A stretch of DNA of 60,524 nucleotides from Deltaproteobacteria bacterium (GCA_016218825.1 JACRCV010000065.1:1-60524); one strand, 5' to 3'. Shown: positions 2,705-17,295, numbered from the stretch's first letter. The notes: a model not told the origin generated them from the letters alone. Numbers and translations are program-made.

Positions 2705-2857
2705 CCTGTCCTCGTTTCCTAAGCTCAAGCCAGACCTGCCTAGTGTCCTAAGATATGCGTTTTTGGAGTGAGGGGGAAGGGCTGTTGTTCCTTCCGCCAG
2801 GGCCTCGTCTTTCGAGCTGCCGCGCCTCGCCCCGCCGCGACCGGCCTCGTTTTGTAT

Positions 2858-2886
2858 TTGTCAGTTCGTGGAGGGTGCGCTATGAA
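2858..2886 (+). promoter_or_regulatory. Predicted promoter of the hydrogenase operon
   Basis: TTGTCA (2858-2863), a 17-bp spacer, and TATGAA (2881-2886) match a housekeeping promoter at 5/6 and 4/6 positions. The leader to the GTG at 2993 would be about 100 nt. Confidence 0.4.
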
Positions 2887-2992
2887 TCGCACCAACCGCC
2901 GCAGGTCGCGTTCGCGACGACGAACGCCTCCGGCACCCGCGGTACAGGAGAAGGAATACAAGGGGCACCAGGGAAACACAAGGGGGCATCAC

Positions 2993-3496
2993 GTGAAAGA
3001 GATGGAAGCCACCAGAACCACCCTCCAAGAGACCATGACCTTCATGACCGCTCTCGCGTACGGCATGGAGCAGATGGCGGATCGCGGCGCCAACGGCATG
3101 GCGTTCGTGGCGGGCAAGAAGCTGGGCGCGAAGCTCGCCGAAACCTCCCAGAAGACCGACGACATCACCCAAGCGCTCGACACGGTGCGGAAGCTCTTGT
3201 CGGCGAACCACTGCAACTGGGGCTTCGAGACCTTCAAGCGCAAGGCGCAGCCAACCCTGATCACCAAAGGCGCCGACGGCGCCGAGAAGCTCGAGCTGGT
3301 GTTTCGTGACTGCATGATCCGGCAGTCGCTGTTTCGCTACGGCCACGTACAAAAGGGATCGATGTGCTACATGATGTACGGCTTCTTCTCCGGCGCCCTC
3401 GAGGCGATCCTCGGCCGGAGAGCGGTCCTCGAGGTCACGCACGCCGGACAGAATGCCTGCCTCAAGTGCCTCACCGTGCATTCGAAAGAGAGCTAG
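2993..3496 (+). CDS. V4R-like (4-vinyl-reductase fold) protein, hydrogenase-associated
   Basis: A 167-residue soluble protein starting at GTG 2993, preceded by AGGGGG seven bases upstream. The C-terminal half has the V4R pattern: Cys107, Cys125, then FSGALEAILGRR and an AG-x3-C near the end (Cys156, Cys159). The same spacing (Cys-x17-Cys-x15-GR-x8-AG) recurs in the protein at 6168-6623, so the two are likely paralogues. V4R domains bind small molecules or metals in other families. It is the first gene of the hydrogenase operon, 73 bp before the small subunit. A role as maturation or sensory subunit is inference. Confidence 0.65.
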   Translation: MKEMEATRTTLQETMTFMTALAYGMEQMADRGANGMAFVAGKKLGAKLAETSQKTDDITQALDTVRKLLSANHCNWGFETFKRKAQPTLITKGADGAEKLELVFRDCMIRQSLFRYGHVQKGSMCYMMYGFFSGALEAILGRRAVLEVTHAGQNACLKCLTVHSKES

Positions 3497-3569
3497 GAGA
3501 CGTCGCGACTAACCAGGACGCAAGAGCCATACTCCGTCGCCCCAACCGGCGACCAGAAGGTAAGGAACG

Positions 3570-4505
3570 ATGACCACCACCAAGGTTTCTGTCAACGTCG
3601 AATGGTTGTCAGCCTGCGGCGGCTGTGACACCTCGCTCGTCGATCTGCACGAGAAGATCCTGCAGCTCTTCGATGCGGTTCAGATCCAGCACTGGCCGCT
3701 CATCACCGACATCAAAGAGCGCCCCAAGGCCAAAATCGGCTTGATCTCCGGCGCGGTCCGCAGCCAGCACGACCACAAGGTGGCCGTCGAGATGCGGGAG
3801 AGGTGCGACGCCATCGTCGCGTTCGGCACCTGCGCGGTGTACGGCGGCATCAGCGCCGCGAGCCTGGCGCACTCCAACGCCGAGATCCTCGACCGGGTCT
3901 ACGTGCACAACCCGACCACCGTCGGCGGCGCCGCGCCCAAGAACACCGTGGCGGTGCTCGAGGACAAGGTGTTGCCGCTCGACGAGGTCATCCCGGTCGA
4001 CCTGTACTTGCCCGGGTGTCCGCCACACGCCAACTTCACCTTCGAGGCGCTCGCGGCGGTCATCGCCGGGCGGGTGCCGAAGGCCCGCGACGAGTCGGTG
4101 TGCGGCCGCTGCAAGCGGACGATGAAGAAGACCGAGGTCGCGGCCATCGACTCGGGTTACGCCCACCCGATGGACCCGTCGCTGTGCTTCTTGAGCCAGG
4201 GCCAGATCTGCCTCGGATCGGTGACCCTGGATCGCTGCCTGTCGCCGTGCACCGAGGTCGGGGCGGCGTGCACCGGCTGCGCCGGGCCGACGATGCAGAT
4301 CCTGACCGAGCCGAACCGCGATCTGCGCACCGAGGTCGCCGAGCGCATGAGCCTGCTCACCAAGATCCCGGCCGCGAAGGTCGTCGAGACCATGGAGGCC
4401 GGCGCCAAGAGCCACTACGCCTACGCGATGGCGACCAAGATGGTGGGCTCGAAGCCCACGTTCCTCATCAAGAAATGGATCGAGAAGATCGAGGCGACCA
4501 CATGA
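3570..4505 (+). CDS. [NiFe] hydrogenase small subunit, cytoplasmic type
   Basis: A 311-residue electron-transfer subunit. Cys16 and Cys19 (ACGGCDTS), Cys88 (FGTCAVYGG) and Cys150 (LPGCPPH) are the proximal cluster ligands. Eight further Cys (178, 181, 206, 214, 223, 227, 234, 237) can hold two more [4Fe-4S] clusters. There is no twin-arginine signal and no C-terminal anchor, so it should act in the cytoplasm. The sequence resembles group 3 (bidirectional or F420/NAD-linked) small subunits more than membrane uptake enzymes; the exact subgroup cannot be fixed by eye. AAGG lies ahead of ATG 3570. Its stop overlaps the large-subunit start by 4 bp. Confidence 0.93.
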   Translation: MTTTKVSVNVEWLSACGGCDTSLVDLHEKILQLFDAVQIQHWPLITDIKERPKAKIGLISGAVRSQHDHKVAVEMRERCDAIVAFGTCAVYGGISAASLAHSNAEILDRVYVHNPTTVGGAAPKNTVAVLEDKVLPLDEVIPVDLYLPGCPPHANFTFEALAAVIAGRVPKARDESVCGRCKRTMKKTEVAAIDSGYAHPMDPSLCFLSQGQICLGSVTLDRCLSPCTEVGAACTGCAGPTMQILTEPNRDLRTEVAERMSLLTKIPAAKVVETMEAGAKSHYAYAMATKMVGSKPTFLIKKWIEKIEATT

Positions 4506-5920
4506 GCCAGACCATCATCGTCGACCCCGTGACCCGTATCGAAGGCCACGCCAAGGTCCTGCTCGACCTCGACGACGGCGGCAAGGTGAAGTCCGCGGGC
4601 CTCGTGGTGAACGAGCTGCGCGGCTTCGAGCGCATCCTCGTCGGCATGCAGGCGGCGACGATGCCGGCGGTGACCGCCCGCATCTGCGGGGTCTGTCCGT
4701 CGGCGCACGCCATCGCCGCCGCCAAGGCGATCGACGCCGCGACCCATGCGGAGGTCCCGGTGGCCGGGCACCTGCTGCGCGAGCTTCTGTACATGGGGCA
4801 CGTCATCCACTCGCACGCGGTGCACCTGTTCGCGCTCGCCGGCCCGGACCTGCTCTTCGGCGTCGACAGCGACCCGGCGAAGCGCAACATCGTCGGCATC
4901 GTCGAGGCCCATCCGGTGATCGCAAAGAAAGCGCTGCGCTTGAGGAGCCTCGGGCAGAAGATCAACGAGACCCTGGGCGGCCGCGGCGTACACCCGGTGA
5001 CCGTGGTCGCCGGCGGCCTGAGCTTCGTCCCGACCCCGGAGCGCATGGCGTCGGTCACCGAGATGGCCACCGAGGCTTTGGCGCTCGTGCAGGAGCTCGC
5101 GCCGCCCATCATCCAGGCGCTCTTGGCCTTGCTGGAGAAGTCGCCGCAATTGGCCGGGATCAAACAGGAAACCGCCTATCTCGGCACGGTGCGAAACGGC
5201 AAGCTCAACCTCTACGACGGCACGCTGCGGCTCGTCGGCGCGGACGGCAAGATCCTGAAGGAGTTCGCGGCCGCGGCGTACGCCGAGCACCTCGTCGAGC
5301 ACACCTACGACTGGTCGTACATGAAGCCGGTGTTCGCGAAGGTGGACGGCAAGGAGGTGGTCTACCGCGTCGGGCCGTTGGCGCGCGTCAACCTCGCCGA
5401 CGGCATGGAGACGCCGCTCGCCGACGCGGCGCTCACGGCGTTCCGCGCCCAGTGGGGTCGGGTGGTGCACGTGACCGCGCTGCAGGAGCACGCGCGGCTC
5501 ATCGAGCTGCTCTACGCCTGCGAGAAGGCGGTGCTGCTCGCGAAGGATCCGGCCGCGAGGGGCAACACCCTGGCGCCGGTCACCTTCACCGCCGGGCGCG
5601 GCGTCGCGCACGTCGAGGCGCCGCGCGGCACGTTGCTCCACGACTACCAGGTGGACGCCGCCGGCGTCGTGCGCAGCGCCAACCTGATCGTCGCGACCCA
5701 GCACAACTACGCCGCCATCAACCGCTCGCTGACGCAGAGCGCCGAGGCCCTCGGGGTCAAGGGCCCCGCGGACGGCAATCTGTTGAACGGGCTCGAGTAC
5801 ACGATCCGCACCTACGACCCGTGCCTCTCCTGCGCTACGCACGCGGTCGGCCGCATGCCGATGCAGGTCTCGGTGCGAAAAGACGGCGTGGTGCTCTACG
5901 ACGTCCGGAGGGACTCATGA
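4502..5920 (+). CDS. [NiFe] hydrogenase large (catalytic) subunit
   Basis: A 472-residue subunit carrying the NiFe site. The L1 motif RICGVCPSAH supplies Cys62 and Cys65, and the L2 motif DPCLSCATH supplies Cys441 and Cys444. TRIEGH (11-16) holds the conserved Glu near the active site. Twenty-five residues follow His447; such an extension is normally cut off by a dedicated protease after nickel insertion, and that protease is encoded at 6633-7112. L2 wording is close to HoxH-type group 3 enzymes. The gene overlaps both neighbours by ATGA, indicating tight translational coupling. No diaphorase or F420 subunit gene is adjacent, so the electron partner is probably the ferredoxin that follows. 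Confidence 0.95.
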   Translation: MSQTIIVDPVTRIEGHAKVLLDLDDGGKVKSAGLVVNELRGFERILVGMQAATMPAVTARICGVCPSAHAIAAAKAIDAATHAEVPVAGHLLRELLYMGHVIHSHAVHLFALAGPDLLFGVDSDPAKRNIVGIVEAHPVIAKKALRLRSLGQKINETLGGRGVHPVTVVAGGLSFVPTPERMASVTEMATEALALVQELAPPIIQALLALLEKSPQLAGIKQETAYLGTVRNGKLNLYDGTLRLVGADGKILKEFAAAAYAEHLVEHTYDWSYMKPVFAKVDGKEVVYRVGPLARVNLADGMETPLADAALTAFRAQWGRVVHVTALQEHARLIELLYACEKAVLLAKDPAARGNTLAPVTFTAGRGVAHVEAPRGTLLHDYQVDAAGVVRSANLIVATQHNYAAINRSLTQSAEALGVKGPADGNLLNGLEYTIRTYDPCLSCATHAVGRMPMQVSVRKDGVVLYDVRRDS

Positions 5921-6171
5921 GCGTTCAAGTGACGATCCGCGAAGAGGCCTGCCGCGGCTGTCAGATGTGCGTCGACGTCTGCCCGACCAAGGTCTTCACG
6001 TACGACGACGCCGCGGCCAAGGCGAGGGTGAGCGGGGTGGAGGACTGCATCGCCTGCCTGAGCTGCGTCTATCTCTGTCCGTCGATGGCCATCAACGAGG
6101 CGGGCTACACCGCGGTGAAGAACTTCTACCGCGATCTCGACTTCAGCCGCCGCATGGAGAGGTTCCTATGA
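5917..6171 (+). CDS. 2[4Fe-4S] ferredoxin, hydrogenase electron carrier
   Basis: An 84-residue ferredoxin with two complete C-x2-C-x2-C-x3-C-P motifs: Cys12, 15, 18, 22 and Cys44, 47, 50, 54. It is overlapped by the large subunit stop (ATGA at 5917-5920) and itself overlaps the next gene, so it is made with the hydrogenase. The tail after residue 60 (VKNFYRDLDFSRRMERFL) is charged and could contact the enzyme. It probably takes or gives the electrons of H2 turnover. It might be a fixed subunit and not a diffusible carrier; the sequence does not decide this. Confidence 0.92.
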   Translation: MSVQVTIREEACRGCQMCVDVCPTKVFTYDDAAAKARVSGVEDCIACLSCVYLCPSMAINEAGYTAVKNFYRDLDFSRRMERFL

Positions 6172-6623
6172 ACGACCGCACCGAGCTGACGCTCACCCTC
6201 GAAGATCACCAGCGCGCCTTCTCCGAGGTGAGCTTCCTGTTGGAGATCCTGGTGGCCACCGCGAGTCAGGTCGTCGGCGACTCGGCGCCGGTGCTCGGCA
6301 CCGCGGCCGGCCGGCACATGGCGAAGAAGCTGCCGATCTACCTCGATCACCCGACCCTCGACGGCGTCCTCCAGGCCCAAGCCCAGACGCTCGGGGCCGG
6401 CTTCGAGATCAAGCACAGCGCCGACGACAAGGGCGCCGACGTCACCTTCGGGCGCTGCGCGCTGCGCGACGTCTGCGGCAACCGCAAGCTCGAGGTCGGC
6501 GCCGAGCTCTGCAAGATGTTCCACCACTACCAGGCGGGCATGGCCGCCGAGCTCTTCGGCCGGCCGGTCCGGGCCACGATCAAGAGCGCCGGCGCCACCT
6601 GCGTCGTCCGCCTGCAGAGCTGA
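6168..6623 (+). CDS. Second V4R-like hydrogenase-associated protein
   Basis: A 151-residue soluble protein. Cys97, Cys115, GR at 131-132, AG at 141-142 and Cys145 reproduce the spacing seen in the protein at 2993-3496, although overall identity is low. The ending (FGRPVRATIKSAGATC) is V4R-like. ATG 6168 overlaps the ferredoxin stop by 4 bp and the maturation protease starts 9 bp after it, so it belongs to the operon. Its N-terminal half is mainly helical. Possible roles are heme or metal sensing, delivery to the enzyme, or a structural subunit; none is shown by the sequence. Confidence 0.65.
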   Translation: MNDRTELTLTLEDHQRAFSEVSFLLEILVATASQVVGDSAPVLGTAAGRHMAKKLPIYLDHPTLDGVLQAQAQTLGAGFEIKHSADDKGADVTFGRCALRDVCGNRKLEVGAELCKMFHHYQAGMAAELFGRPVRATIKSAGATCVVRLQS

Positions 6624-6632
6624 GGGCGCGGC

Positions 6633-7112
6633 TTGCCGGTGCCCGGGGTCCTGGTCGTCTGTGTCGGCAATGATCTGGTCGCCGACGACGGCGTCGGCCC
6701 CGCGGTGTACGAGCACCTCCGGCGCCGGCCGCAGCAGGACGGGGTGCGGCTGTCGTTGCTCGGGGTCGGCGGCCTCGAGCTGTTGGACGAACTCGAGGGC
6801 GACGCGCTCCTGATCGTCGTCGACGCGGTGCTCGGCGGCGCGCGCCCCGGCACGATCTCGGTGCGGCGGGTGCAAGACGACGACCTCTGCCGGCCGCCGC
6901 CCACAGACGCGCACGCGATCGGCGTGCTCGAAGCCCTGGCGGTGGGGCGGGCTCTCTTTCCGGGGGTGATGCCGCGCGAGATCGTTCTCGTCGGCGTCGA
7001 GGGGCAACGCTTCGGTGAGGTCGGGCCGATGACGGGAGCGGTCGCCGCAGCCGCAGAGCGCGCGGCCGGCGTCGTGGCCGACCTGTGCGCCGAGGTCAGA
7101 GGGCGGCGGTGA
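6633..7112 (+). CDS. [NiFe] hydrogenase maturation endopeptidase
   Basis: A 159-residue protein of the HycI/HybD peptidase family, which trims the C-terminus of the large subunit once nickel is in place. GNDLVADDGVG (residues 12-22) is the family's first motif with the acidic nickel ligand. VVDAVLGG near residue 57 and DAHAIGV near residue 89 match the positions of the other two ligands (Asp and His). The start is TTG 6633 because GAGGG sits about 7 bases upstream; GTG 6639 is the alternative. The 3' end overlaps the convergent roadblock gene by 17 bp. Confidence 0.88.
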   Translation: MPVPGVLVVCVGNDLVADDGVGPAVYEHLRRRPQQDGVRLSLLGVGGLELLDELEGDALLIVVDAVLGGARPGTISVRRVQDDDLCRPPPTDAHAIGVLEALAVGRALFPGVMPREIVLVGVEGQRFGEVGPMTGAVAAAAERAAGVVADLCAEVRGRR

Positions 7113-7452
7113 GATCGTTGATGCGCTTCTTCACCTGGTAGCGGATGTTACCCAGGTTGCAGCGCTGGTCGGCGACGACCGCGAGGATGGCATCGGGCCC
7201 CAACAGGGAGATGATCAACATGCCTTCCTTGTACTCGTACATGCCTTGGTCGAGCTTGCCGACCTTCAGCTCGCGACCGATGACCTCGGACGAACCGATG
7301 CCGGACGAGATCGCGGCCGCGATGGCGTCGTTGTCGACGCCGCCGCTGGCGTTGGCGGACTCGATGACGAATCCGTCGCGGCCGATGACCAAAGACGCCT
7401 TGACGCCTTCGACAATCATGAACTCATTCAGAATTGGTTTCAGACCCGCCAT
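7096..7452 (-). CDS. Roadblock/LC7 domain protein (MglB-like)
   Basis: A 118-residue protein that is almost entirely one roadblock/LC7 domain: an N-terminal helix (LKPILNEF), then VKASLVIGRDGFVIESAN, a central helix and a C-terminal helix. In myxobacteria such proteins dimerise and act as GTPase-activating or exchange partners of MglA-type GTPases. It is the last gene of a minus-strand run that includes an MglA-like GTPase at 9589-10170. AAGGGGG precedes ATG 7450-7452 by eight bases. It converges with, and overlaps by 17 bp, the hydrogenase protease gene. Confidence 0.88.
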   Translation of the reverse strand: MAGLKPILNEFMIVEGVKASLVIGRDGFVIESANASGGVDNDAIAAAISSGIGSSEVIGRELKVGKLDQGMYEYKEGMLIISLLGPDAILAVVADQRCNLGNIRYQVKKRINDLTAAL

Positions 7453-7528
7453 GTTCAGGCCCCCTTAGGGCGTTGGGTTCAAGGTTCTTCTACCAGATAC
7501 TTCCTTCGAAACGGACGTCCATGCAAGC

Positions 7529-8851
7529 CTATTGTCGCCCACGCTGCGGCAAAGTGAAATTTCCGGCCGCCGCCTTGACCAGGCCATCGAGGATCATCTG
7601 CCGTTTGCCTGGCGGGTGGGACCCTAGCGCGAGTTTCGCCAGCAATGCAACCTGTAGCCACAGGCTCATGTCGGCGCGCTCGTGGACGACGCTCGCCAGC
7701 TCCTTGACGACCGAGACGAATTGAGTCCGGCGGCTCGTCGCCTCTTGGGCATCGCGACCCCCACCCGGGGCAGGGGTCGTCCGGGGCGCCGGGCGGAGCG
7801 CGGCCTCGGGCGCCGCCGGGCGGGGGGGATCCACGGTGTTGATCTGATCCCAGATCCGCTGCAACGACCCGGTGTCCGGGGTCTTCTTGTCGCCGGCGTT
7901 GCGCGCCTGCTCGGCCTGCGCTTCGGCCGGGAACAGCTCGCGCATGAAGTCGCCGAGCTCGGCGTTGGTGGCCTCGAGCCGTGCGGTCACCAGGAGGTGG
8001 GAGATGTCGCGCGCCAGGTCGGCGATGCGCTGGTAGCGCTTGGTCGGGTCGCGCATCAGCGCCTTGCCGACGATGCGGTCGATCTCCGGGGGCAGCTTGG
8101 AGCGCACCGACGACGGCGTCGGGATCGGCATCTGCAGCACGCGGTTCAGGGTCTCGCCGTAGGGACCGCCGGCGAACAGCCGCCGGCCGGTGAGCATCTC
8201 GTGCATGATGATGCCGACCGCAAAGATGTCGGCGCGGGTGTCCATCCCCTGGCCGGTCGCGACCTCCGGGGCCATGTAGGAGATCTTGCCCTTGACGGTG
8301 TTGGCCTCGGTGACCGAGACCTGCTCGGCGGCCTTGGCGACGCCGAAGTCGCTGATCTTCACCTCGCCGGCGAACGAGATCAGGATGTTGTGCGGGCTGA
8401 CGTCGCGGTGCACCACCGGCGCCAGCATGCCGTTCACCCGGCGCTCGTGCGCGGCGTGCAGGCCCTTGCAGGCGTCGAGCGCGATCAAGAGCGCGTGCCG
8501 CAGGTAGAGCGGCAGGTTCTGGGCGGCGAGCTTGGTCAGGACCTCGGAGAGCGGCTTGCCCTCGACGAGCTCCATGATCAGGCAGAGCTGGCCGTCGATC
8601 TGGCCGAGGTCGTGGATCGCGACGATGTTGGCGTGGTGCAACGACGCGGCGATGCGCGCCTCGTCGATGAACATCCGCACGAACTCTTCGTTCGACGCCA
8701 AATGCGGCAGGATGCGCTTCACCGCCACCCGGCGCACGAAGCCGCCGACGCTGCGGCGCTCGGCGCGAAACACGTCCGCCATGCCGCCGACCCCGATGCG
8801 GTCCAAGAGGACGTACTCGCCGAGGATGGTGGCGCCTTGCGGGGTCGTCAT
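7529..8851 (-). CDS. Soluble Hanks-type Ser/Thr protein kinase
   Basis: A 440-residue kinase. The kinase domain spans about residues 12-285: glycine loop GVGGMADVF, catalytic lysine in VAVKRIL, catalytic loop HRDVSPHN, DFG, and MAPE in the activation segment. All catalytic residues are present. The remaining 150 residues are a Pro/Ala linker followed by a helical tail; no transmembrane segment or PEGA repeat is seen, so it should be cytosolic. It starts 3 bp after the stop of the DUF4388 gene upstream, implying co-translation with the GTPase module. The HRDVSPHN wording is typical of myxobacterial kinases. Confidence 0.93.
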   Translation of the reverse strand: MTTPQGATILGEYVLLDRIGVGGMADVFRAERRSVGGFVRRVAVKRILPHLASNEEFVRMFIDEARIAASLHHANIVAIHDLGQIDGQLCLIMELVEGKPLSEVLTKLAAQNLPLYLRHALLIALDACKGLHAAHERRVNGMLAPVVHRDVSPHNILISFAGEVKISDFGVAKAAEQVSVTEANTVKGKISYMAPEVATGQGMDTRADIFAVGIIMHEMLTGRRLFAGGPYGETLNRVLQMPIPTPSSVRSKLPPEIDRIVGKALMRDPTKRYQRIADLARDISHLLVTARLEATNAELGDFMRELFPAEAQAEQARNAGDKKTPDTGSLQRIWDQINTVDPPRPAAPEAALRPAPRTTPAPGGGRDAQEATSRRTQFVSVVKELASVVHERADMSLWLQVALLAKLALGSHPPGKRQMILDGLVKAAAGNFTLPQRGRQ

Positions 8852-8854
8852 CCG

Positions 8855-9565
8855 CTACTTGACCTCGCCGTCGATCAGCTGCTTGAGGCTGACGCCGACC
8901 TTGGACGCGGCGAGCATCATCGCCCCCATCGGCACCGAGGGCTGCGCCATCATCACCAGGCTGACCTCGGTCCCGAGCCGCAGCCACAGGGTGTGGCCGT
9001 CGTCGTACTCCAGCCAGCAGCGCTTGATGCCGGTGCGGGGCGCGGCGTCGGCCACCGAGAAGCAGTGCTTCGCGAGGCTCTGGGACACCGGCTTCAACGA
9101 CGAGTCCGCCGGCACCGCGTTCGGGCAGCGGCCGTCGCGGGTCACGAACGACAACAGCACGAAGCCGGCGTGGGTGCCCATCGCCTCTTGCAGCCCCTTC
9201 TTCGCCTCCTCGGACTCCAGCCGCAGCCCGGGCGACGCCGGCGCCGGCGCCGGTTTGCGCTGCTCGTCGCGCTTCTTCGCCACCCGCATCAACAGGCGGT
9301 GCAGGTCCTCCTCGATGGTCTTCTTCGGCGCCGCGATCCCTTGGGTGAAGGTGAAGTCGCCGGTGGTCCAACCGAGGGCGTCCACCAGCGCGTCCTCGTC
9401 GCGTTTGGCGCCGAGCACCCCGTGCACGATGCGCCCTTCATTGTAATAGAAGCGAGCGGTCTGGCCGTTGTGGTCGAGCTTCAGCTCGCCCGCCTGTCGG
9501 CCCATCGCCGGCAGCTGCAGCACGTCGTTGATGTTCATGTCGGAGAGACTGCCTGAGAGTGCCAT
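8855..9565 (-). CDS. DUF4388 (PATAN) protein with a roadblock-like C-terminus
   Basis: A 236-residue protein. Residues 1-75 are a DUF4388/PATAN domain (SLSDMNINDVLQLPAMGRQAGEL, then FYYNEGRIVHG and the closing GDFTF). After a charged linker, the C-terminal 110 residues (HAGFVLLSFVTRDGRC ... LWLRLGTEVSLVMM) resemble a divergent roadblock fold. PATAN domains are thought to be adaptors in bacterial GTPase and two-component networks. AAGGG precedes ATG 9563-9565 by seven bases. It sits between the GTPase and the kinase genes on one strand. Confidence 0.75.
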   Translation of the reverse strand: MALSGSLSDMNINDVLQLPAMGRQAGELKLDHNGQTARFYYNEGRIVHGVLGAKRDEDALVDALGWTTGDFTFTQGIAAPKKTIEEDLHRLLMRVAKKRDEQRKPAPAPASPGLRLESEEAKKGLQEAMGTHAGFVLLSFVTRDGRCPNAVPADSSLKPVSQSLAKHCFSVADAAPRTGIKRCWLEYDDGHTLWLRLGTEVSLVMMAQPSVPMGAMMLAASKVGVSLKQLIDGEVK

Positions 9566-9588
9566 GGCCGAACCCTTGTCCGTTCAGA

Positions 9589-10170
9589 TCAAAATGCAAA
9601 TCGCTCCACGACGCTGCGGCTGATCGCTTGCGCCGTTTGCTTCACGCCCTCACCTCTGCTGGCCACCGCTTCGAACACCTGGAGCGGCGTGAAGCCAACC
9701 TTCGCCTCGACGCTGCCGACGGCGAGCGCCCGCGGGATGTCGCGCTTATTGTATTGAAAAATCACTGGGATGCGCTCGATTGCCGAGTGACACGCCTTGA
9801 GGTTCTTGCACAGGTCCTCGTACGAGGCGTAGTTGGCCGGCTCCCGGGCGGGGTCGGAGTCGATCACGAACACCACGCCGTCCGCGCCCTCCAGCACCAG
9901 GCGCCGCGAGGCCTCGTAGAAGTCCTGACCCGGCACGGTGTACATCCGCAGCCGCACGCTCATGCCGTTGATCTGGCCGAGCTCGACCGGAAAGAAGTCG
10001 AAGAAGATCGTCGACTCGCTCTCGGTCGCCAGCGACACCATCTGGCCCTTGTGCTGCTCTCTCAGGCCCTGGTGGAGCTGAATGAGGTTCGTCGTCTTGC
10101 CGGACATGCCGGCGCCGTAATAGACGATCTTCAGCTCTATGAGCTTGTTATGAATGTTGACGTAGACCAA
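9589..10170 (-). CDS. MglA-type small Ras-like GTPase
   Basis: A 193-residue GTPase. The G1 loop is GAGMSGKTTN. The G3 region reads TVPGQ, with Thr in place of the usual Asp of DxxGQ, the hallmark of the MglA family. G4 is NKRD. The start is TTG 10168-10170: it follows GAGG by five bases and gives the usual short MglA N-terminus before KIVYYG. MglA-type proteins switch cell polarity and motility in myxobacteria and bind MglB-like roadblock dimers. Here the neighbours are roadblock, DUF4388 and kinase genes, so it may be a paralogue in a separate switch. The true mglBA pair would be expected elsewhere in the genome. Confidence 0.9.
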   Translation of the reverse strand: MVYVNIHNKLIELKIVYYGAGMSGKTTNLIQLHQGLREQHKGQMVSLATESESTIFFDFFPVELGQINGMSVRLRMYTVPGQDFYEASRRLVLEGADGVVFVIDSDPAREPANYASYEDLCKNLKACHSAIERIPVIFQYNKRDIPRALAVGSVEAKVGFTPLQVFEAVASRGEGVKQTAQAISRSVVERFAF

Positions 10171-10211
10171 GAGCGCCTCGTGCTCGTCGTCGCCAGACCG
10201 GTTTCGCTCGA

Positions 10212-10706
10212 TCAGGGCGAGAAGATCCGGTCGATGAGATCCAGCGCGTACTCCCTGAATTCGGAGCTTCGCTTCGCGGGTTCCTGGGAGGCCGGCTCGT
10301 CCGCCGACGGGGTCCAGTCCATGGCTGCCAATTCACCTACGCGCCCTGCTATCCGCCGCGTCACCGTGCGGATCATGCCGATCTTTCCGACGTCTTCGAA
10401 GATCAGCGCCAGCATGAAGTCGTTGGTCACGAGCGAGATGTGGATGTGACGCTTCTCACCCTGCTGCAACAGGATCGAGAAGTGCTTCTCGCCGACCAGC
10501 TTCGCCACCTCGCGGGTCGCCGAGAACATGCCGCCCAAGAGCGCCGCCAGCGCGGTGATGTCGAGGTAGCTGACGTCGCCGCGCGACGTCACCAGCGACC
10601 CGTCCCTTGTCACCAGGGCCACGGTGCGCAGCGCACACTCCGAAACCAAGCTGTCGAGAATGGCCGCGAGCTCGGCGCGCGCAGCCGCGTTGTTGTCTTG
10701 CGTCAT
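10212..10706 (-). CDS. Roadblock/LC7 domain protein (MglB-like)
   Basis: A 164-residue protein with a roadblock/LC7 core at about residues 8-125 (CALRTVALVTRDGSLVTSRG, then HFSILLQQGEKRHIHISLV) and an extra 40-residue acidic/basic tail ending in a helix (FREYALDLIDRIF). It is placed directly before the MglA-like GTPase, the usual mglB-mglA order, which supports a regulatory partnership. Its ATG overlaps the stop of the DUF4388 gene upstream by 4 bp. Confidence 0.88.
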   Translation of the reverse strand: MTQDNNAAARAELAAILDSLVSECALRTVALVTRDGSLVTSRGDVSYLDITALAALLGGMFSATREVAKLVGEKHFSILLQQGEKRHIHISLVTNDFMLALIFEDVGKIGMIRTVTRRIAGRVGELAAMDWTPSADEPASQEPAKRSSEFREYALDLIDRIFSP

Positions 10707-11512
10707 TGCTTGTCCTCGCCTCCGAGATCCAACCCACCGGCAAACGGATCCACGCCGTCCCCCGCGGCCGGTGCCGCCTCAGCCGTCGCAGGCTCCGCCT
10801 GCTTGGCGTCGCCTGCAGCTCGCCCGCGCTCGTCCCGTAGCCGCATCGCGTTCAGGAGCAGGCCGGTGCTCTTCTCCGTGATCGTGCGCTCGATGTCGCT
10901 CGGGATCGCCACCTCCGTGAACTGCCCGTGCTCCGCGGCCAGGATCTTGTAGAGGGCCTCGGTGCCGCGCAAGCTCCCGCAGCTCGCATCGACGATCTCG
11001 CCGTTCTTCACCAGGATGCGCCCCGAGCCCTCGGGGGAGCGGACCACCACCGCCCGGGTCTCGTTCTTCATCATCACCAGCTGCAGGAAGTCCACCAGGT
11101 CGATGCGCAGCACCGAGCCGACCAGGCCCTCGGCGAACGACGCCATGTCGAGGACCGAGCGGATACGGGCCGGGGTGGCGTTGCGCTCGAAGAAATAGGT
11201 CCGGTCGCCGTGCTCGATCTCCGGCCAGGATCGCGACTCGACCAGACAGTCATAAGTCATTTTGAGGTCTTCCACCTGTGACAAGAACCGGCGATTGGTC
11301 TCGTTCACGAACGCGACGGTGTTCTCTGCCGGCGTGTTGACGACGACCAGGCTCAAGTCCAGACGCTTGACCAGCTCGACGCCGAGATCCGGTTCGTGGG
11401 CCAGCACTGGTTGCTGCCCCGCTGCCACCACCCGCCGCGCAAAGAAGAACAGTTCCCGCAGGTCCAAGGCCAAGACGAGGCAGGAGACAACGTGGTGTTC
11501 CCGTTCAGACAC
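10703..11512 (-). CDS. Pseudo-receiver plus DUF4388 (PATAN) protein
   Basis: A 269-residue protein. Residues 1-85 look like a degenerate response-regulator receiver: alternating strands and helices, with LSLVVVNTP where the phospho-acceptor strand would end, but no clear phosphorylatable Asp. Residues about 130-215 are a clear DUF4388 domain (LVGSVLRIDLVDFLQLVMM, GRILVKNGEIVDASCG, EALYKIL). The tail is Ala/Pro/Glu-rich. GTG 11510-11512 is the start, with a G-rich ribosome site. It is the first gene of the six-gene GTPase unit and probably feeds a signal to it. Confidence 0.75.
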   Translation of the reverse strand: MSEREHHVVSCLVLALDLRELFFFARRVVAAGQQPVLAHEPDLGVELVKRLDLSLVVVNTPAENTVAFVNETNRRFLSQVEDLKMTYDCLVESRSWPEIEHGDRTYFFERNATPARIRSVLDMASFAEGLVGSVLRIDLVDFLQLVMMKNETRAVVVRSPEGSGRILVKNGEIVDASCGSLRGTEALYKILAAEHGQFTEVAIPSDIERTITEKSTGLLLNAMRLRDERGRAAGDAKQAEPATAEAAPAAGDGVDPFAGGLDLGGEDKQ

Positions 11513-11613
11513 TCCCCACCCGCAAATCGAATCCTTCGTCCATTTCGATTGCCTTCAAAACGAGCCGATACTGCCCCGAAACCGACCTCTTGACAAGGGC
11601 CGATTCCACCCCC

Positions 11614-11642
11614 TTGACAAAGCCCCCGGCTCACCGTAACCC
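11614..11642 (+). promoter_or_regulatory. Predicted promoter of the coiled-coil gene
   Basis: TTGACA (11614-11619), a 17-bp spacer and TAACCC (11637-11642). A second perfect TTGACA lies exactly 24 bp upstream (11590-11595), each inside CTTGACAA, so the pair could also be a direct-repeat operator. Confidence 0.4.
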
Positions 11643-11730
11643 TGCAGCAACGGAAAATCCCCTAGCGGCTCCAGGCTTCCGAGCGGAATTCTTGCGCAGC
11701 CAGCCGTCTGGCAACACAGTAAGGGTACCA

Positions 11731-13044
11731 ATGGACACCCGGAACGATACCGATATGATCCGCAGGACCCTCCAGCAGCTGCGGTCGCTGGAAGAAGGGC
11801 TCGAGGGGTTCGGGAAGCTCTTCCATGTCGTCGCCGAGAACCTCCGCCTCCAGATCGAGCACGCTCAGCTCCCGACCGCCGCCGGCGACGCCGACACCGC
11901 CGCACTCCATCACCAGCTGCGCGCCGCCAACGAAGAGCTCGGCCTCCTGCGCCAGAAGAAGAACGAAGCCGAGGCGTTGCATCACGAGCTCACCGAGCTG
12001 CGGCGGGGGAAGGGTGACACGACCGCGCTCCACGAGGAGCTGCGTCACGCGAAGGCCGAGGCCGAAGGCCTACAGCGCGAGGTCGAAGAGCTGCGCCGCG
12101 GCCAGGGGGACAGGGAGGCCACCCATCAAGAGGTGCTGCGGTTGCGGCAAGAAGCAGAGCAGCAGGGCGCCGCCAAGTCCCACGCCGAGGAGCTCAAGCG
12201 CCAGCTCGACGGCCTGACCCACGAGTACGAAGAGCTGCGCGGCAGGCACGAGCACGCCAGCAAGGAGGCCGGCGAGACCGCGGCGTTGCGGCAAGAGGTC
12301 GAGAAGCTGCGCGCCGAGCTGGCGAAGGCGGCGGCGTCGCCCGACCGCAGCGCCGAGATGGAGAAGCTCGAGGAGGCCTTCGAGCGCCAGCGCTCCGACG
12401 GCATCACCTCGTGGGACCGGGTGCACGTCCTGGAGACCGAGAACGAGGCGCTGAAGCTCCAACTCGACTCGGCGCAGAGCGACGGCATCACCGCCTGGGA
12501 CAAGGTCTATCAGCTCGAGCAGCAGCTGCAGCAGGCCGGGCAACCCCAAGGGGGCGGCGACGCCGGCGGCCAGACCGGGCTGCACAAGAAGCTGGTCTAC
12601 TACGAGGACGAAATCGCGGCGTTGCGCTCGACGGTGGCCAAGCTCGAGACCGACCTGTCGAAGCGTCCGGCGGCGGTCGGGCCGGCGGCCGTCGCCGCGA
12701 GCGCGGTGGTTGCCGGGCAAGCCCCGGCGGGTGGGGCGCCGCGACCGACCCCACAATCAGACACCGGACGACGCCCGACCTTGAGGTTGCCGCAGCCGGT
12801 CACTGCCGGCGCTTTGCCTCAGGCCGCGCCGATGGCGAGGCCGGCGGCCGCTGCGGCCCCGCGGGCGGCGAACGTGGTGCCGGGTGCTCCGGCCGGACCC
12901 CTCGGCGCGCCGGCTCGTCCGATGGCGCCGGTCGCGAGACCGATGGCCCCCGCGGCACCGGTCGCGGCGCCGGTCCGACCGCTCGCCGCCGCCCCTGTCG
13001 ACGCCGGGGTGCCGGGCTTGGAGTTGACGCGGCCGCCGCGCTGA
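11731..13044 (+). CDS. Long coiled-coil protein with twin SDGIT-WD repeats
   Basis: A 437-residue protein. After a 50-residue N-terminal segment (MIRRTLQQLRSLEEGLEGFG) it is a long heptad-rich coiled coil to about residue 290. Two short repeats follow each other at about residues 220-265: SDGITSWDRVHVLE and SDGITAWDKVYQLE. The last 100 residues are Ala/Pro/Arg-rich and disordered. AAGGG is five bases before ATG 11731. It is divergent from the six-gene GTPase unit and convergent with a DUF4388 gene, so it may be a scaffold of that system. No homologue is recognised. Confidence 0.8.
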   Translation: MDTRNDTDMIRRTLQQLRSLEEGLEGFGKLFHVVAENLRLQIEHAQLPTAAGDADTAALHHQLRAANEELGLLRQKKNEAEALHHELTELRRGKGDTTALHEELRHAKAEAEGLQREVEELRRGQGDREATHQEVLRLRQEAEQQGAAKSHAEELKRQLDGLTHEYEELRGRHEHASKEAGETAALRQEVEKLRAELAKAAASPDRSAEMEKLEEAFERQRSDGITSWDRVHVLETENEALKLQLDSAQSDGITAWDKVYQLEQQLQQAGQPQGGGDAGGQTGLHKKLVYYEDEIAALRSTVAKLETDLSKRPAAVGPAAVAASAVVAGQAPAGGAPRPTPQSDTGRRPTLRLPQPVTAGALPQAAPMARPAAAAAPRAANVVPGAPAGPLGAPARPMAPVARPMAPAAPVAAPVRPLAAAPVDAGVPGLELTRPPR

Positions 13045-13049
13045 GCGCG

Positions 13050-14153
13050 TTAGCTCGCTTCGATCGATCGTTCGTCCCATTCGAGGATGCGGATCGCGTC
13101 CTCGAGGTTGCCGGCGCCCACCTGCTCCAGGGCCTTCTTGTAGCGCTCGACGGTGGGGAGCGGCGCGTGGCGCTTGCGGAGCTGGCGCAGGCGCTCTCGG
13201 AGCGCGATGCGCACCGTGCTCACCGCCTCTTCTTCCGATTCTACCTGCAGCAGGAGGTTCTTCATCAGCACCCGGAAGCGGTCCGGGGTCGCGTGTCCCG
13301 AGATCCAGTCGTGGATCTCCGCGGTGCGGTCGCTGAGCACCTGGCAAGCCGCGGCCGGGTCGGCGTTCTGGTCGGTGATCACCGCGATCATGTGCTGGCG
13401 TAGATTGTCGACCCAGCGGGCCACCAGCCAGCCGGTGTCCTGGCGCAAGGTCAGCGAGCCGTCGGTGCTCACGCGGGTCACCGCCACCGCCCGCGCCAAG
13501 CCCTCCATCGCGGTCGCCAGGAACACCCCCAAGACCACCGGGTCGACGGCGCGCGCCGAGACGTGCGCGGTCAGCACCGCGCCGTCCGAGGTGTAGACCG
13601 CCGAGCCGAGATAGCCCTGGATGTCGGCGAAGCGGGTGAGGATGTCGTTCTCGATGCCGCGGATGCTCCAGAGCTTGAACGAGTCGGAGGTCTCGTCGGG
13701 CTCGGTCTCGGCGTTGACGTCGGTGGGCAGGATCTCGGCGACCTCGAAGAGGACCTCCTCGTCGGCGACGAAGTTGCCCGGCACCAACGAGACCTGAGCC
13801 TCCTTGACCGTGCTCATCGCCCGGATCGCGGCGCGGGTGTGCAACAGGATGCCGCGACGCAGCAGCGGCCGTGCGATGAAGCCACACTCCTCGACGATGG
13901 CGCCGAGCTTCTTCTGGCCGTGGCCGGCGGCGTAGATCGTCCGGATGACCTCGAGCTGGGTGTCGGTGACGTAGCCCAGGCGCCACAGGAAGCTGCCGAG
14001 GTTCTCGGGCTGGTGCTTGGAGACCGCCCAGGCGACCTTGCCGTTCTGGACGAAGATCTGGCCGACGCAGGTGCTCTCCTGGGTGACGCGGATGCAGCCG
14101 TCCCAACGGCCTTGCGACGCGGTACGAATGACGTCCAGGAGCTCGATATTCAT
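13050..14153 (-). CDS. DUF4388 (PATAN) domain protein, long form
   Basis: A 367-residue protein. The first 120 residues carry a DUF4388-type domain (GQIFVQNGKVAWAVS, then LGAIVEECGFIARPLL) followed by a helical segment. Residues about 170-300 (FADIQGYLGSAVYTSDGAVL ...) look like a roadblock-related sensor fold. The C-terminus is helical (TVERYKKALEQVGAGNLEDAI). The start is ATG 14151-14153; a longer frame upstream runs into the divergent promoter region and lacks domain character. It converges with the coiled-coil gene at a gap of 5 bp. It is likely another adaptor of the GTPase locus. Confidence 0.75.
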   Translation of the reverse strand: MNIELLDVIRTASQGRWDGCIRVTQESTCVGQIFVQNGKVAWAVSKHQPENLGSFLWRLGYVTDTQLEVIRTIYAAGHGQKKLGAIVEECGFIARPLLRRGILLHTRAAIRAMSTVKEAQVSLVPGNFVADEEVLFEVAEILPTDVNAETEPDETSDSFKLWSIRGIENDILTRFADIQGYLGSAVYTSDGAVLTAHVSARAVDPVVLGVFLATAMEGLARAVAVTRVSTDGSLTLRQDTGWLVARWVDNLRQHMIAVITDQNADPAAACQVLSDRTAEIHDWISGHATPDRFRVLMKNLLLQVESEEEAVSTVRIALRERLRQLRKRHAPLPTVERYKKALEQVGAGNLEDAIRILEWDERSIEAS

Positions 14154-14226
14154 GCGCCGTCGCAGGTCTTGGTGGTCGCGGAGAAACAAACCCGAGAACC
14201 ACGATGTTGCCGAGTGCCTCCAACAT

Positions 14227-14255
14227 AGCACAACAGGCTTCGGCCGTCGTGTCAA
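14227..14255 (-). promoter_or_regulatory. Predicted promoter of the DUF4388 gene
   Basis: On the minus strand TTGACA (14250-14255) is followed after 17 bp by TGTGCT (14227-14232). The -35 box is perfect and the -10 is poor; a CTATG overlapping it is an alternative. Confidence 0.35.
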
Positions 14256-14269
14256 AGGCCGACCGGCCC

Positions 14270-14297
14270 TTGACTCGGGCGCCGTTCTTTGTTGCCT
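14270..14297 (+). promoter_or_regulatory. Predicted promoter of the M1 peptidase gene
   Basis: TTGACT (14270-14275), 16 bp, TTGCCT (14292-14297). The -10 differs by one base from the TAGCCT seen at other promoters in this window. The leader would be about 50 nt. Confidence 0.35.
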
Positions 14298-14352
14298 CTC
14301 GCCGGCCCGGCGTGCAGTAGTCGCGGTCACGGTCGGACTCACGGAGAACTGC

Positions 14353-17295
14353 ATGGGATCTGGTCTCGCGCTCGTCTGGTTGGCGCCGCTCTTCATTGCC
14401 CAGTCCACCGTCGGGGCCGGGGGCGCCGCGAGTGCGTCCGACGGCGCCTCGTGCCCCGAGGTTCCGCACCTGGTCCTCGACGTCGGGCTTTCGGCCGACC
14501 ACGTCCTCTCCGGCACCGCGGTCTGGACCATCACCAACACCGAGGCGGCGCCGCTCGCACAGCTGCAGCTGGCGCTGCTCGCCAACGGCGGCGAAGAGCC
14601 GAACCCGTCGCTGTCCGGCATCGCCAACGCGGCGGCCTACTTCAACGCCTGGGAGCCGGCCAAGACCGATCTGCAGACGGTCGAGGTCGACGGCCACAAG
14701 GCGCCGTTCCATTATCTGCCAAGTGTCGCGGTGAACCAGCGCTACTCGCTGCAGCGGATCTATGCGGTGGTGCCCCTGGCGGCGCCCCTCGCGCCCGGCG
14801 GTTGCGTGCGGCTGGAGACGCACTTCGCGACCACGGTGCCGCACCAGCGCGGCGACGGCGGCCACTTCAACGGCGACACCACCTGGCGCTTCGGGTGGTT
14901 CCCGCAACCGCGGGTGCGGATGAACGGGCAGTGGCAGGACGGCGTGGTGTTCTCCGGCTTCACCCACGTGACCCGCTTCGCGGTCGAGGACCAGAAGACC
15001 GTGATCCTCGGCGCCGACCGGGTGCGCTACGACGCCGACGCCGCCTACGCCCGCTCCGACGTCGTGGTGCGCTCGATCCCGTTCGTGGTCAGCGACCGCC
15101 TGACGCGGACCTCGCGGACCATCGACGGGGTCCGGGTGCACGTCTACACCTACCCCGACCTGGCGCTCTTCGACACCTCGGAGGGAGAAGCGAGAGAGAC
15201 CCTCGCCGAGCTGTCCCGCATCTTGCCGTTCTACCGCAAGGCGTTCGGCGCCTACCGCCTGCATACCTTGCAGGTGCTCGAGTCGCCGCTGTCCTGGGCG
15301 TCGATGGCCGCCGACGGCATGATCCTGCAGAGCGACGTCTTCTTCATCTACGACCGCTCGTGGATCGCGTGGGGGCTGTTCCGGCCGCTCGCCGCGGTGA
15401 TCCTCGCCCACGAGCTCGGTCACCAGTGGTGGGGCGTGGGCGTCGGCGCCGACATGGACGCCGAGAACTGGCTCTCGGAGAGCCTGTCGCAGTTCATGGC
15501 GTACAGCTACAGCGAGGCGCGCTTCGGGACGGAGGGCAACGACTACCTGCGCCCCAACTGGTTCATCCGCGCGCTGGCCGCGAACTTCGGCGGCACGGCG
15601 TTGCCGCAAAACCAGCTGAACCACGAGATCCAGCCGAGCTACACCGACCACCTGCGCTTCGGCGTCGACGGCAGCATCCTGGCGCCGATGCGGAGCCGCG
15701 CCCATCCGGAGGAGAGCGCCTACCTGGTCTACAACAAGGGCTACCTCGCGGTGCGGGCGCTCGCCGGCCTGTTGTCCCCGAGCGGCTTGCGCGCGACCCT
15801 GCGGGCGTTGTTCGCCGAGCGCGCCGGCAGCATCATCACCACCGACGATCTCGCCGCCACCGCGCTCGCGGTGACCGGGGTCGACATTCAGCCGTTCTTG
15901 CACAGCTTCGTGCGCGGCACGGCGCACGCCGATCTCTCGGTGACCGCGGTCGAGAGCGTCGCCCACCGCGGCGGGGTGCGCACCCGGATCACGCTGCACC
16001 GCGACGGCGATCTGACGCTGCCGGCGACGGTGCGCATCGACACCGGAGAGCGGTCCGAGGACGTGGTCTGGGACACCCGCGAGCCCGATCGGGTCGTGGA
16101 GGTGGAGAGCGACGCGGCGCCGCAGGCGGTGAGCGTCGATCCGGACAACTACGTCCCCGACTCCAACCGCGGCAACAACGTCTGGCCGGAGAAGACCCGC
16201 TTCGAGATGTTCGCGCCGCAGCGCAACCCCGACGCGACGACCTACTCGTTCAACCCGCTGCCGATCCACCGCCACTACCTGGCCGGCCTGTCGGTGGGCG
16301 GCGTCGACTACGACAACAACCGCTTCTGGGTCGGCGCCGGCGTCGCCAACGTCCTCGGCGACGCCAAGCGCGAGGGCAAGACGACCTACGCGGTGGAGAG
16401 CAAGGTCTACGGTGAGGCGGCGGTGCCGTCGGGGCGCGCCGCGCAGCTCTCGGCGCTCGCGGAGTCGACCTATCGCCGGGATTGGGACAACGGCGACTAC
16501 GCCGCGGCGAGGCTGACCTTGGCGCACACCGCGGCGCTCTACCAGCCGATCGACGTCGGCTACACCGGGGCGTGGAGCCTGCCGCGCACCACCTTGTCGT
16601 CGCGCGTCGGGGTCGGCGGGGTCTCGATCCCCGGGCGCCCCAGCGTCTGGAGCGACAGGCATCTGAAGAGCCCGGATCGGATCCACGAAGGCGCGGTGCC
16701 GTTTTGCGGCTTGACGTTGGTTCGCGACGAGACCCTGAACTACGGCGCCGCCTTCGAGATCGCGCTCGCCCTGGGGCTGGACCGGAGCCTCGATCGCGCC
16801 TTCGGGGTCGCCGAGAGCGCGGTGACGACGCTGCACGTGATCCCCTACCTCGGGCGGCTGTCGCTCTTCGCCCATGGGTTCGTGGCGAGCGCCGCCGCCG
16901 ACCCGCTGTTCGCGCGGCCGGGCATGAGAGCGCTGCCGTACACCCGGACCGCGGGCATCAACCCGTTCGACGCGGGCGCCGACGCCGGGGTGCTCCTCAA
17001 GGTGCCGGTGCTGCGCGACCTGCGCATCAAGAACGAGCTGACGCTGGGGCTCTTGGTGCTGAACGACGTCTCGCTCGAAGCCCACTACGGGATCGCCACC
17101 GGCAGCGAGTGGCGAGGCGCGCGCGACGACGGCCTCGGGCCTTGGGAGCGGGTAGGCGAGGCCGGGGTCGCGGTGAGGATCGGGCTCGGGTTTCTGGCGT
17201 TCCCGTTCGAGCTCGCGATCGGCATCGGCACGCCGGTGTGGCCGTCGAAGAGCAGCTTCGAAGAGCGCGGCTACTTCATTCGCGCCGGGACGTGA
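14353..17295 (+). CDS. Exported M1-family zinc metallopeptidase with barrel-like C-terminus
   Basis: A 980-residue protein. The start ATG 14353 follows GGAGA and opens a signal peptide (MGSGLALVWLAPLFIAQSTV). Residues about 30-600 form an M1 aminopeptidase unit: HELGH at 353-357 and Glu376 in NWLSESL give the exact HEXXH-x18-E zinc site. The canonical GAMEN exopeptidase motif is not present; the equivalent region reads SMAADGM, so substrate choice may differ. From about residue 640 onward the sequence turns into alternating Gly/aromatic strands (AGLSVGGVDYDNNRFWVGAG ...) ending in IRAGT, like an outer-membrane beta-barrel. The fusion suggests a surface-anchored peptidase. Confidence 0.85.
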   Translation: MGSGLALVWLAPLFIAQSTVGAGGAASASDGASCPEVPHLVLDVGLSADHVLSGTAVWTITNTEAAPLAQLQLALLANGGEEPNPSLSGIANAAAYFNAWEPAKTDLQTVEVDGHKAPFHYLPSVAVNQRYSLQRIYAVVPLAAPLAPGGCVRLETHFATTVPHQRGDGGHFNGDTTWRFGWFPQPRVRMNGQWQDGVVFSGFTHVTRFAVEDQKTVILGADRVRYDADAAYARSDVVVRSIPFVVSDRLTRTSRTIDGVRVHVYTYPDLALFDTSEGEARETLAELSRILPFYRKAFGAYRLHTLQVLESPLSWASMAADGMILQSDVFFIYDRSWIAWGLFRPLAAVILAHELGHQWWGVGVGADMDAENWLSESLSQFMAYSYSEARFGTEGNDYLRPNWFIRALAANFGGTALPQNQLNHEIQPSYTDHLRFGVDGSILAPMRSRAHPEESAYLVYNKGYLAVRALAGLLSPSGLRATLRALFAERAGSIITTDDLAATALAVTGVDIQPFLHSFVRGTAHADLSVTAVESVAHRGGVRTRITLHRDGDLTLPATVRIDTGERSEDVVWDTREPDRVVEVESDAAPQAVSVDPDNYVPDSNRGNNVWPEKTRFEMFAPQRNPDATTYSFNPLPIHRHYLAGLSVGGVDYDNNRFWVGAGVANVLGDAKREGKTTYAVESKVYGEAAVPSGRAAQLSALAESTYRRDWDNGDYAAARLTLAHTAALYQPIDVGYTGAWSLPRTTLSSRVGVGGVSIPGRPSVWSDRHLKSPDRIHEGAVPFCGLTLVRDETLNYGAAFEIALALGLDRSLDRAFGVAESAVTTLHVIPYLGRLSLFAHGFVASAAADPLFARPGMRALPYTRTAGINPFDAGADAGVLLKVPVLRDLRIKNELTLGLLVLNDVSLEAHYGIATGSEWRGARDDGLGPWERVGEAGVAVRIGLGFLAFPFELAIGIGTPVWPSKSSFEERGYFIRAGT

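Follow-up and report, generated by a model that had tools for sequence, protein, structure and literature searches.

An MglA-type GTPase without the arginine finger, encoded in an operon with roadblock, PATAN and kinase genes

MglA systems and how the locus compares with them

The catalytic arginine finger of MglA, Arg53, is a residue of the GTPase itself, which is needed for activity and is moved into place by MglB (PMC4316618; PMC6785124; PMC6876712). MglB contributes no residue of its own, and in the solved MglA-MglB complexes no MglB element is found in the nucleotide site (PMC6876712). The intrinsic finger has been reported to be conserved across all group-1 MglA members, whereas in MglA groups 2-5 it is replaced by Thr in G2, together with GTPGQ in G3, and arginine-independent chemistry is presumed; CvnD9, which comes from groups 2-5, shows GTPase activity (PMC4316618). 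The arginine finger is regarded as a fixed, defining element of the group-1 mechanism. Here we describe an MglA-type GTPase, gtp, which has Ser at this position and is encoded together with roadblock, PATAN and kinase proteins at 7096-14153 of a stretch of 60,524 nucleotides (the window) from a Deltaproteobacteria bacterium (GCA_016218825.1, JACRCV010000065.1:1-60524), a member of the phylum of Myxococcus. The module is a variant of the MglA/MglB kind and has so far been seen in one genome.

The closest described systems are the group-1 mglBA pairs of Myxococcus xanthus and Thermus thermophilus. Their GTPases are ~45-50% identical to gtp and share TVPGQ, the P-loop and NKxD, and here as there the gene directly before that of the GTPase encodes an MglB-type roadblock protein in which the C-terminal helix motif is present. 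The present locus differs in Ser53 and in having Q/R at positions K181/K185, the site, outside the switch regions, that binds the MglB C-terminal helix; the operon also holds another roadblock gene, a kinase gene and two PATAN genes, and the classical pair is encoded separately in the genome.

One precedent for a multi-part GTPase module is provided by the actinobacterial conservons (PMC13343842). Like the present operon, the conservons (AGPS; CvnABCD, group 2) are multi-gene operons with roadblock, GTPase and kinase genes, but their kinase is a histidine kinase (CvnA) and not a Ser/Thr kinase, their GTPase has GTPGQ and NxFD where gtp has TVPGQ and NKRD, and the present module lacks CvnC and includes PATAN proteins. 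In M. xanthus, MasK, a kinase encoded beside mglBA, has been reported to bind MglA (PMC3546991). The masABK genes likewise place a protein kinase gene next to the mgl operon; however, they form a separate, divergent operon of membrane proteins and have no PATAN genes, whereas the kinase gene described here lies inside the GTPase operon and its product has no clear transmembrane segment. PATAN genes cluster with MglA/MglB elsewhere (PMC4316618), and in cyanobacteria a PATAN regulator reportedly targets the pilus motor PilB1 (PMC7690835). The PATAN-type regulators PatA, PixG, PixE and LsiR resemble the proteins of this module in carrying a PATAN/DUF4388 domain in a signalling context, but combine it with a receiver of the CheY type; in the present proteins none is detectable, and their genes stand beside that of a GTPase.

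The GTPase and its roadblock partner

The gtp gene (9589..10170, minus strand) encodes 193 aa from a TTG start that aligns with the MglA start, and the closest solved structure is 3t12, MglA (E 1e-52). Its identity to any other MglA found does not exceed ~50%. The group-1 MglA nucleotide-binding motifs are kept in the P-loop (GAGMSGKTT) and NKRD (NKxD), and G3 (MYTVPGQDF) contains the group-1 TVPGQ with Gln at residue 82, as far as which the MglA numbering applies gap-free. Switch-1 reads E-S-T-I-F-F-D, whereas in other MglAs it is [D/E]-R-T-[L/I]-F-F-D, and residue 53, where MglA has its intrinsic catalytic arginine finger, is Ser (codon TCG at 10012..10014, minus strand, two base changes from any Arg CGN). 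Thr54, Asp58, Gln82, the P-loop and NKRD are all retained. Judged by these motifs, gtp keeps all that is predicted to be needed for binding GTP and magnesium, plus the catalytic Gln82.

Arg53 is present in 157 of the 157 other genuine MglA-type GTPases compared, from many phyla, and Ser occurs in gtp alone. In the underlying alignment of 159 distinct sequences, position 53 is Arg in 156, and the remaining three are gtp, L195 and L196. L195 was rejected as a second GTPase without Arg53, the apparent absence being an alignment gap (the actual sequence is EGRTLFFDW), and L196 was rejected as it has no GTPase match. With Ser53 and TVPGQ, gtp therefore matches neither the group-1 nor the groups 2-5 definition. 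The absent arginine finger is the feature that sets the module apart most, and it does not appear in the first-pass annotation of the window.

In one alternative, the locus is a group-1 MglA/MglB pair of the ordinary sort that happens to have PATAN genes nearby, with nothing functionally new. The protein is of the MglA family by sequence (TVPGQ and the match to 3t12), the proximity of PATAN genes to mgl genes was already noted in 2006 and 2014 (PMC4316618), and PATAN-MglB-MglA clusters occur in WOR-3 and Caldisericaceae metagenome-assembled genomes (MAGs). This alternative is considered very unlikely, as Arg53, conserved in group 1 (PMC4316618), is absent from gtp, the searches described below found no close relative, and a kinase gene and a second roadblock gene are added.

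The gene directly upstream of gtp, rb1 (10212..10706, minus strand; 164 aa), encodes a roadblock protein that matches Robl_LC7 above the cut-off and has M. xanthus MglB (6h5b/6izw, E 6e-14) as the closest solved structures. Its position agrees with the rule by which an MglB is encoded within four genes of mglA. The alignment with M. xanthus MglB spans the whole protein and takes in the C-terminal helix motif, which reads LIDRIF in place of DIDNLF, and the acidic residues (triplet) of the M. xanthus C-terminal helix are mostly lost. Based on these sequence comparisons, rb1 is an MglB homologue. In the helix SATREVAKL, rb1 has Arg where MglBs have Gly, Ser, Asn or Lys (mostly Gly or Ser). We take this helix to correspond to the MglA-facing helix of the solved complexes.

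The rb1 Arg is a candidate for an arginine supplied in trans, and bears on a second alternative, in which gtp is fully hydrolysis-competent without Arg53. Hydrolysis would then proceed either by arginine-independent chemistry, as presumed for groups 2-5, or with an arginine from rb1, the second roadblock protein rb2, the PATAN protein pat2 or another protein, and gtp would be a cycling switch with a true catalytic GTPase-activating protein (GAP). The groups 2-5 MglAs, with Thr for Arg and the active CvnD9 (PMC4316618), offer a parallel for the former route; however, they have GTPGQ in G3, whereas gtp keeps the group-1 TVPGQ. The latter route is at odds with the solved complexes, where no MglB element enters the nucleotide site (PMC6876712), and with the finding that some MglBs partnered by an Arg-retaining GTPase have Lys at this point of the helix. 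Full competence of gtp is considered possible, though doubtful.

The operon and a proposed dedicated switch

On the minus strand, the transcription order is recpat (10703..11512), rb1, gtp, pat2 (8855..9565), kin (7529..8851) and rb2 (7096..7452), all of them intact. The recpat and rb1 genes overlap by 4 bp (ATGA) and the following gaps are 41 bp (rb1-gtp), 23 bp (gtp-pat2), 3 bp (pat2-kin) and 76 bp (kin-rb2), which makes a single transcript likely. A coiled-coil gene, cc (11731..13044, plus strand), is divergent from recpat, and a further PATAN gene, pat3 (13050..14153, minus strand), is convergent with cc; the ATG codons at 11731 and 14153, respectively, are the most likely starts. The first-pass annotation had described this arrangement of six tight minus-strand genes, a divergent coiled-coil gene and another PATAN gene, and its order, strands and coordinates were confirmed, with all reading frames intact. 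Its roadblock, GTPase, kinase and three PATAN assignments are borne out by Pfam matches: Robl_LC7 at 46.8 and 32.8 bits (cut-off 23), Pkinase at 140.8, Arf/Ras at 32.0/28.8, and DUF4388 (PATAN) at 66.7, 51.7 and 28.0 bits (cut-off 25). The 6.5-Mb genome contains 22 DUF4388 matches, and the Poisson probability of three within 7 kb is ~2e-6; the clustering of the kinase and three PATAN genes with the GTPase is far beyond chance. Each of the eight genes has a GC content of 0.86-0.95 at third codon positions, the same as in real genes nearby, and the tetranucleotide composition of the module stretch agrees with other contigs of the genome. Mis-assembly was rejected, as the module composition matches the genome and relatives show matches, in gene order, to the right part of the window.

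The genome encodes three further MglA-type GTPases, on C77, C73 and C65. The C77 GTPase gene adjoins an MglB gene and forms a canonical mglBA pair, its product being 96% identical to its counterpart in a genome of the same genus (G001), where the C73 and C65 GTPases also have counterparts. The earlier proposal that the module is a second system and not the classical one is upheld by this pair and by the C73 and C65 paralogues. In the same phylum, genome G049 encodes an MglB that matches the solved M. xanthus MglB chain. The genome of the window also has a fourth locus that matches the Arf profile but is missed by the MglA query, located in an open frame of 919 aa (L098; G000:C57:3634-4095).

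The reading we prefer, with a probability of roughly 0.55, is that the module forms a second, dedicated MglA-type switch specific to this lineage, in which the off-step has been slowed or rewired and the roadblock, PATAN and kinase proteins of the operon probably take part. The module was found in no other sampled genome, and it is therefore probably a bacterial polarity or motility switch of a known kind that has been rewired. The gtp switch would be separate from the canonical mglBA and would be made from one transcription unit with its own roadblock proteins, PATAN adaptors and Ser/Thr kinase. rb1 is expected to bind gtp but would be unable to speed hydrolysis in the known way, because MglB does so by swinging in Arg53, a residue of the GTPase itself. 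The active state may be long-lived, or the off-step may be supplied differently, by another protein or by arginine-independent chemistry as presumed for groups 2-5. The PATAN proteins, and perhaps cc as well, would relay the state of the GTPase to a target. Analogy with M. xanthus MglA and the cyanobacterial PATAN regulators makes the type IV pilus or polar machinery the most plausible one. The kinase would provide the input, with one or more module proteins as its substrates. An output in polarity, motility or secretion, as put forward in the first-pass annotation, is plausible by homology. A further reading, in which kin phosphorylates gtp at Ser53 or the neighbouring Ser51/Thr54, and a phosphorylatable residue at the finger position so turns a GAP-timed MglA-type switch into a kinase-timed one, is regarded as a long shot.

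A natural MglA without the finger, with the rest of the site kept and extra regulators in the operon, would offer a direct test of finger-free switching, and the module would also test the way in which roadblock proteins control a GTPase when they are unable to complete it as usual. The presence of kinase and PATAN genes inside the mgl operon itself joins signalling families that have hitherto been connected mainly by neighbourhood.

Several points weigh against a dedicated switch. gtp was searched for in 195 genomes of its own phylum and in 396, 369 and 396 of the phyla of Acidobacteria, Bdellovibrionota and Nitrospirota MAGs, and neither an orthologue nor a syntenic module was found in these ~1,350 genomes of four phyla. 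Conserved synteny was thus not found at the level of genus, family, phylum and three other phyla, the outcome that the first-pass annotation had named beforehand as refuting its proposal. As no orthologue or syntenic copy was found, conservation offers no argument for joint action of the genes or for maintenance of Ser53. The interactions, phosphorylation and GTPase activity proposed for the module are predictions, and its output is proposed by analogy only. Single-sequence AlphaFold models of two PATAN proteins were too poor to be used (mean predicted local distance difference test scores of 38 and 46).

The search results also bear on the possibility that the locus is a decaying, fast-evolving mglBA pair, duplicated or acquired, in which relaxed selection has cost the catalytic residue and the signalling neighbours are accidental. 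The best non-self match of gtp scores 199 bits, compared with 419 for self; the matches listed are 43-51% identical, and those checked among them resemble ordinary MglAs. G183, G941 and the other best non-self matches were rejected as orthologues, since Arg53 is kept in all and the module genes are absent. In the same-genus genome G001 neither gtp nor the operon was found, but the genome is just 86% complete, so that absence there alone is no proof, and the family-level genome G002 has no match to gtp of orthologue strength. A six-peptide pattern scan of one genome from each of 84,980 species, which may overlook an orthologue in which all six peptides differ, returned just 31 loci, with 37-48% identity to gtp. 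In the maximum-likelihood tree, which had no groups 2-5, gtp has the longest terminal branch, at 1.84 changes per column, lacks a sister and joins an unresolved fork among group-1-type sequences, its exact place being uncertain. The long branch, the missing orthologues, the loss of the catalytic residue and the absence from the same-genus and same-family genomes are in line with decay. By contrast, all eight reading frames are intact with normal codon-position GC, the remaining switch and nucleotide-binding residues that were checked are all kept, as are the catalytic motifs of the kinase, and Ser53 lies two base changes away from a CGN codon. Decay is considered unlikely, and a dedicated switch remains the preferred reading.

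Other MglA-type clusters were seen in the course of the comparison. At G036:C368, ~4000-16500 (L099), two MglA-type GTPases are encoded among coiled-coil, HEAT-like, PATAN-like and receiver proteins, and one of them carries, as a fusion, a long C-terminal extension rich in Ala, Pro and Glu (788 aa). This locus was rejected as a related module, being a different cluster of coiled-coil and HEAT-like proteins. Compact PATAN-MglB-MglA clusters in which Arg53 is kept are found in a WOR-3 MAG (L049, ~4700-6340) and a Caldisericaceae MAG (L056, ~190-1820). Their GTPases are close relatives across supposedly different phyla, which suggests that one MAG may be mislabelled or that the cluster was transferred.

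PATAN proteins, kinase and neighbouring genes

The first gene of the operon, recpat, has a GTG start and encodes 269 aa, with an N-terminal domain (1-125), a PATAN/DUF4388 domain (132-229) and an acidic Ala-rich tail. A pseudo-receiver had been proposed for this protein; the N-terminal half has no Pfam profile or PDB match to a receiver fold, even at relaxed E-values, and residues 1-125 are to be called an N-terminal domain of unknown fold. pat2 (236 aa) had been described as PATAN-roadblock-like. The PATAN part (4-102) stands, and the C-terminal part is at best weakly roadblock-like, its comparison with the MglB profile being collinear over 94 columns with an hhalign E of 0.026 but a probability of only 2%, and its hidden Markov model score for roadblock just 2.1 bits. 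pat3 (367 aa) has a weak N-terminal PATAN/DUF4388 domain, which at 28.0 bits barely exceeds the cut-off, and a helical C-terminus. No significant similarity to MglB emerged when pat3 and recpat were compared with it by profile. Searches with pat2 and pat3 in 193 genomes of the phylum returned isolated PATAN-domain matches only, and pat3 has one PATAN-only relative, 35% identical, in genome G036.

kin is a Hanks-type Ser/Thr protein kinase of 440 aa with VAVK, HRD, DFG and APE motifs, and a 165-aa C-terminal extension in which no known domain was found. It matches PD-T4-6 and other defence-kinase profiles (E 5e-73), as would be expected if the module were an anti-phage defence island with the kinase as effector. 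The match is, however, to the generic Hanks kinase fold, PknB-type profiles fit at least equally (E 1e-78), and the other module proteins match no defence family beyond weak coiled-coil matches; a defence island is considered highly improbable. The cc protein (~437 aa) has a coiled coil over ~1-310, and two 'SDGITxWDxVxxLE' repeats ahead of a Pro/Ala-rich tail. No cc homologue was found among the loci compared.

The last gene of the operon, rb2, encodes a stand-alone roadblock protein of 118 aa without the MglB C-terminal helix. Its 3' end overlaps a convergent hydrogenase-protease gene by 17 bp, and the module is therefore taken to end at rb2. A functional link between the module and the hydrogenase genes was dropped, as the two run towards each other, with overlapping 3' ends. 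The hydrogenase cluster had no nucleotide match in the four nearest genomes searched. It occupies 2768-7112 of the window (plus strand) and is of the [NiFe] type, and both subunits, small and large, most resemble those of the F420-non-reducing Vhu/Mvh type; it also encodes a ferredoxin, a HycI-type protease and, at 2768-3496 and 6168-6623, products with weak V4R or ATC-hydrolase matches.

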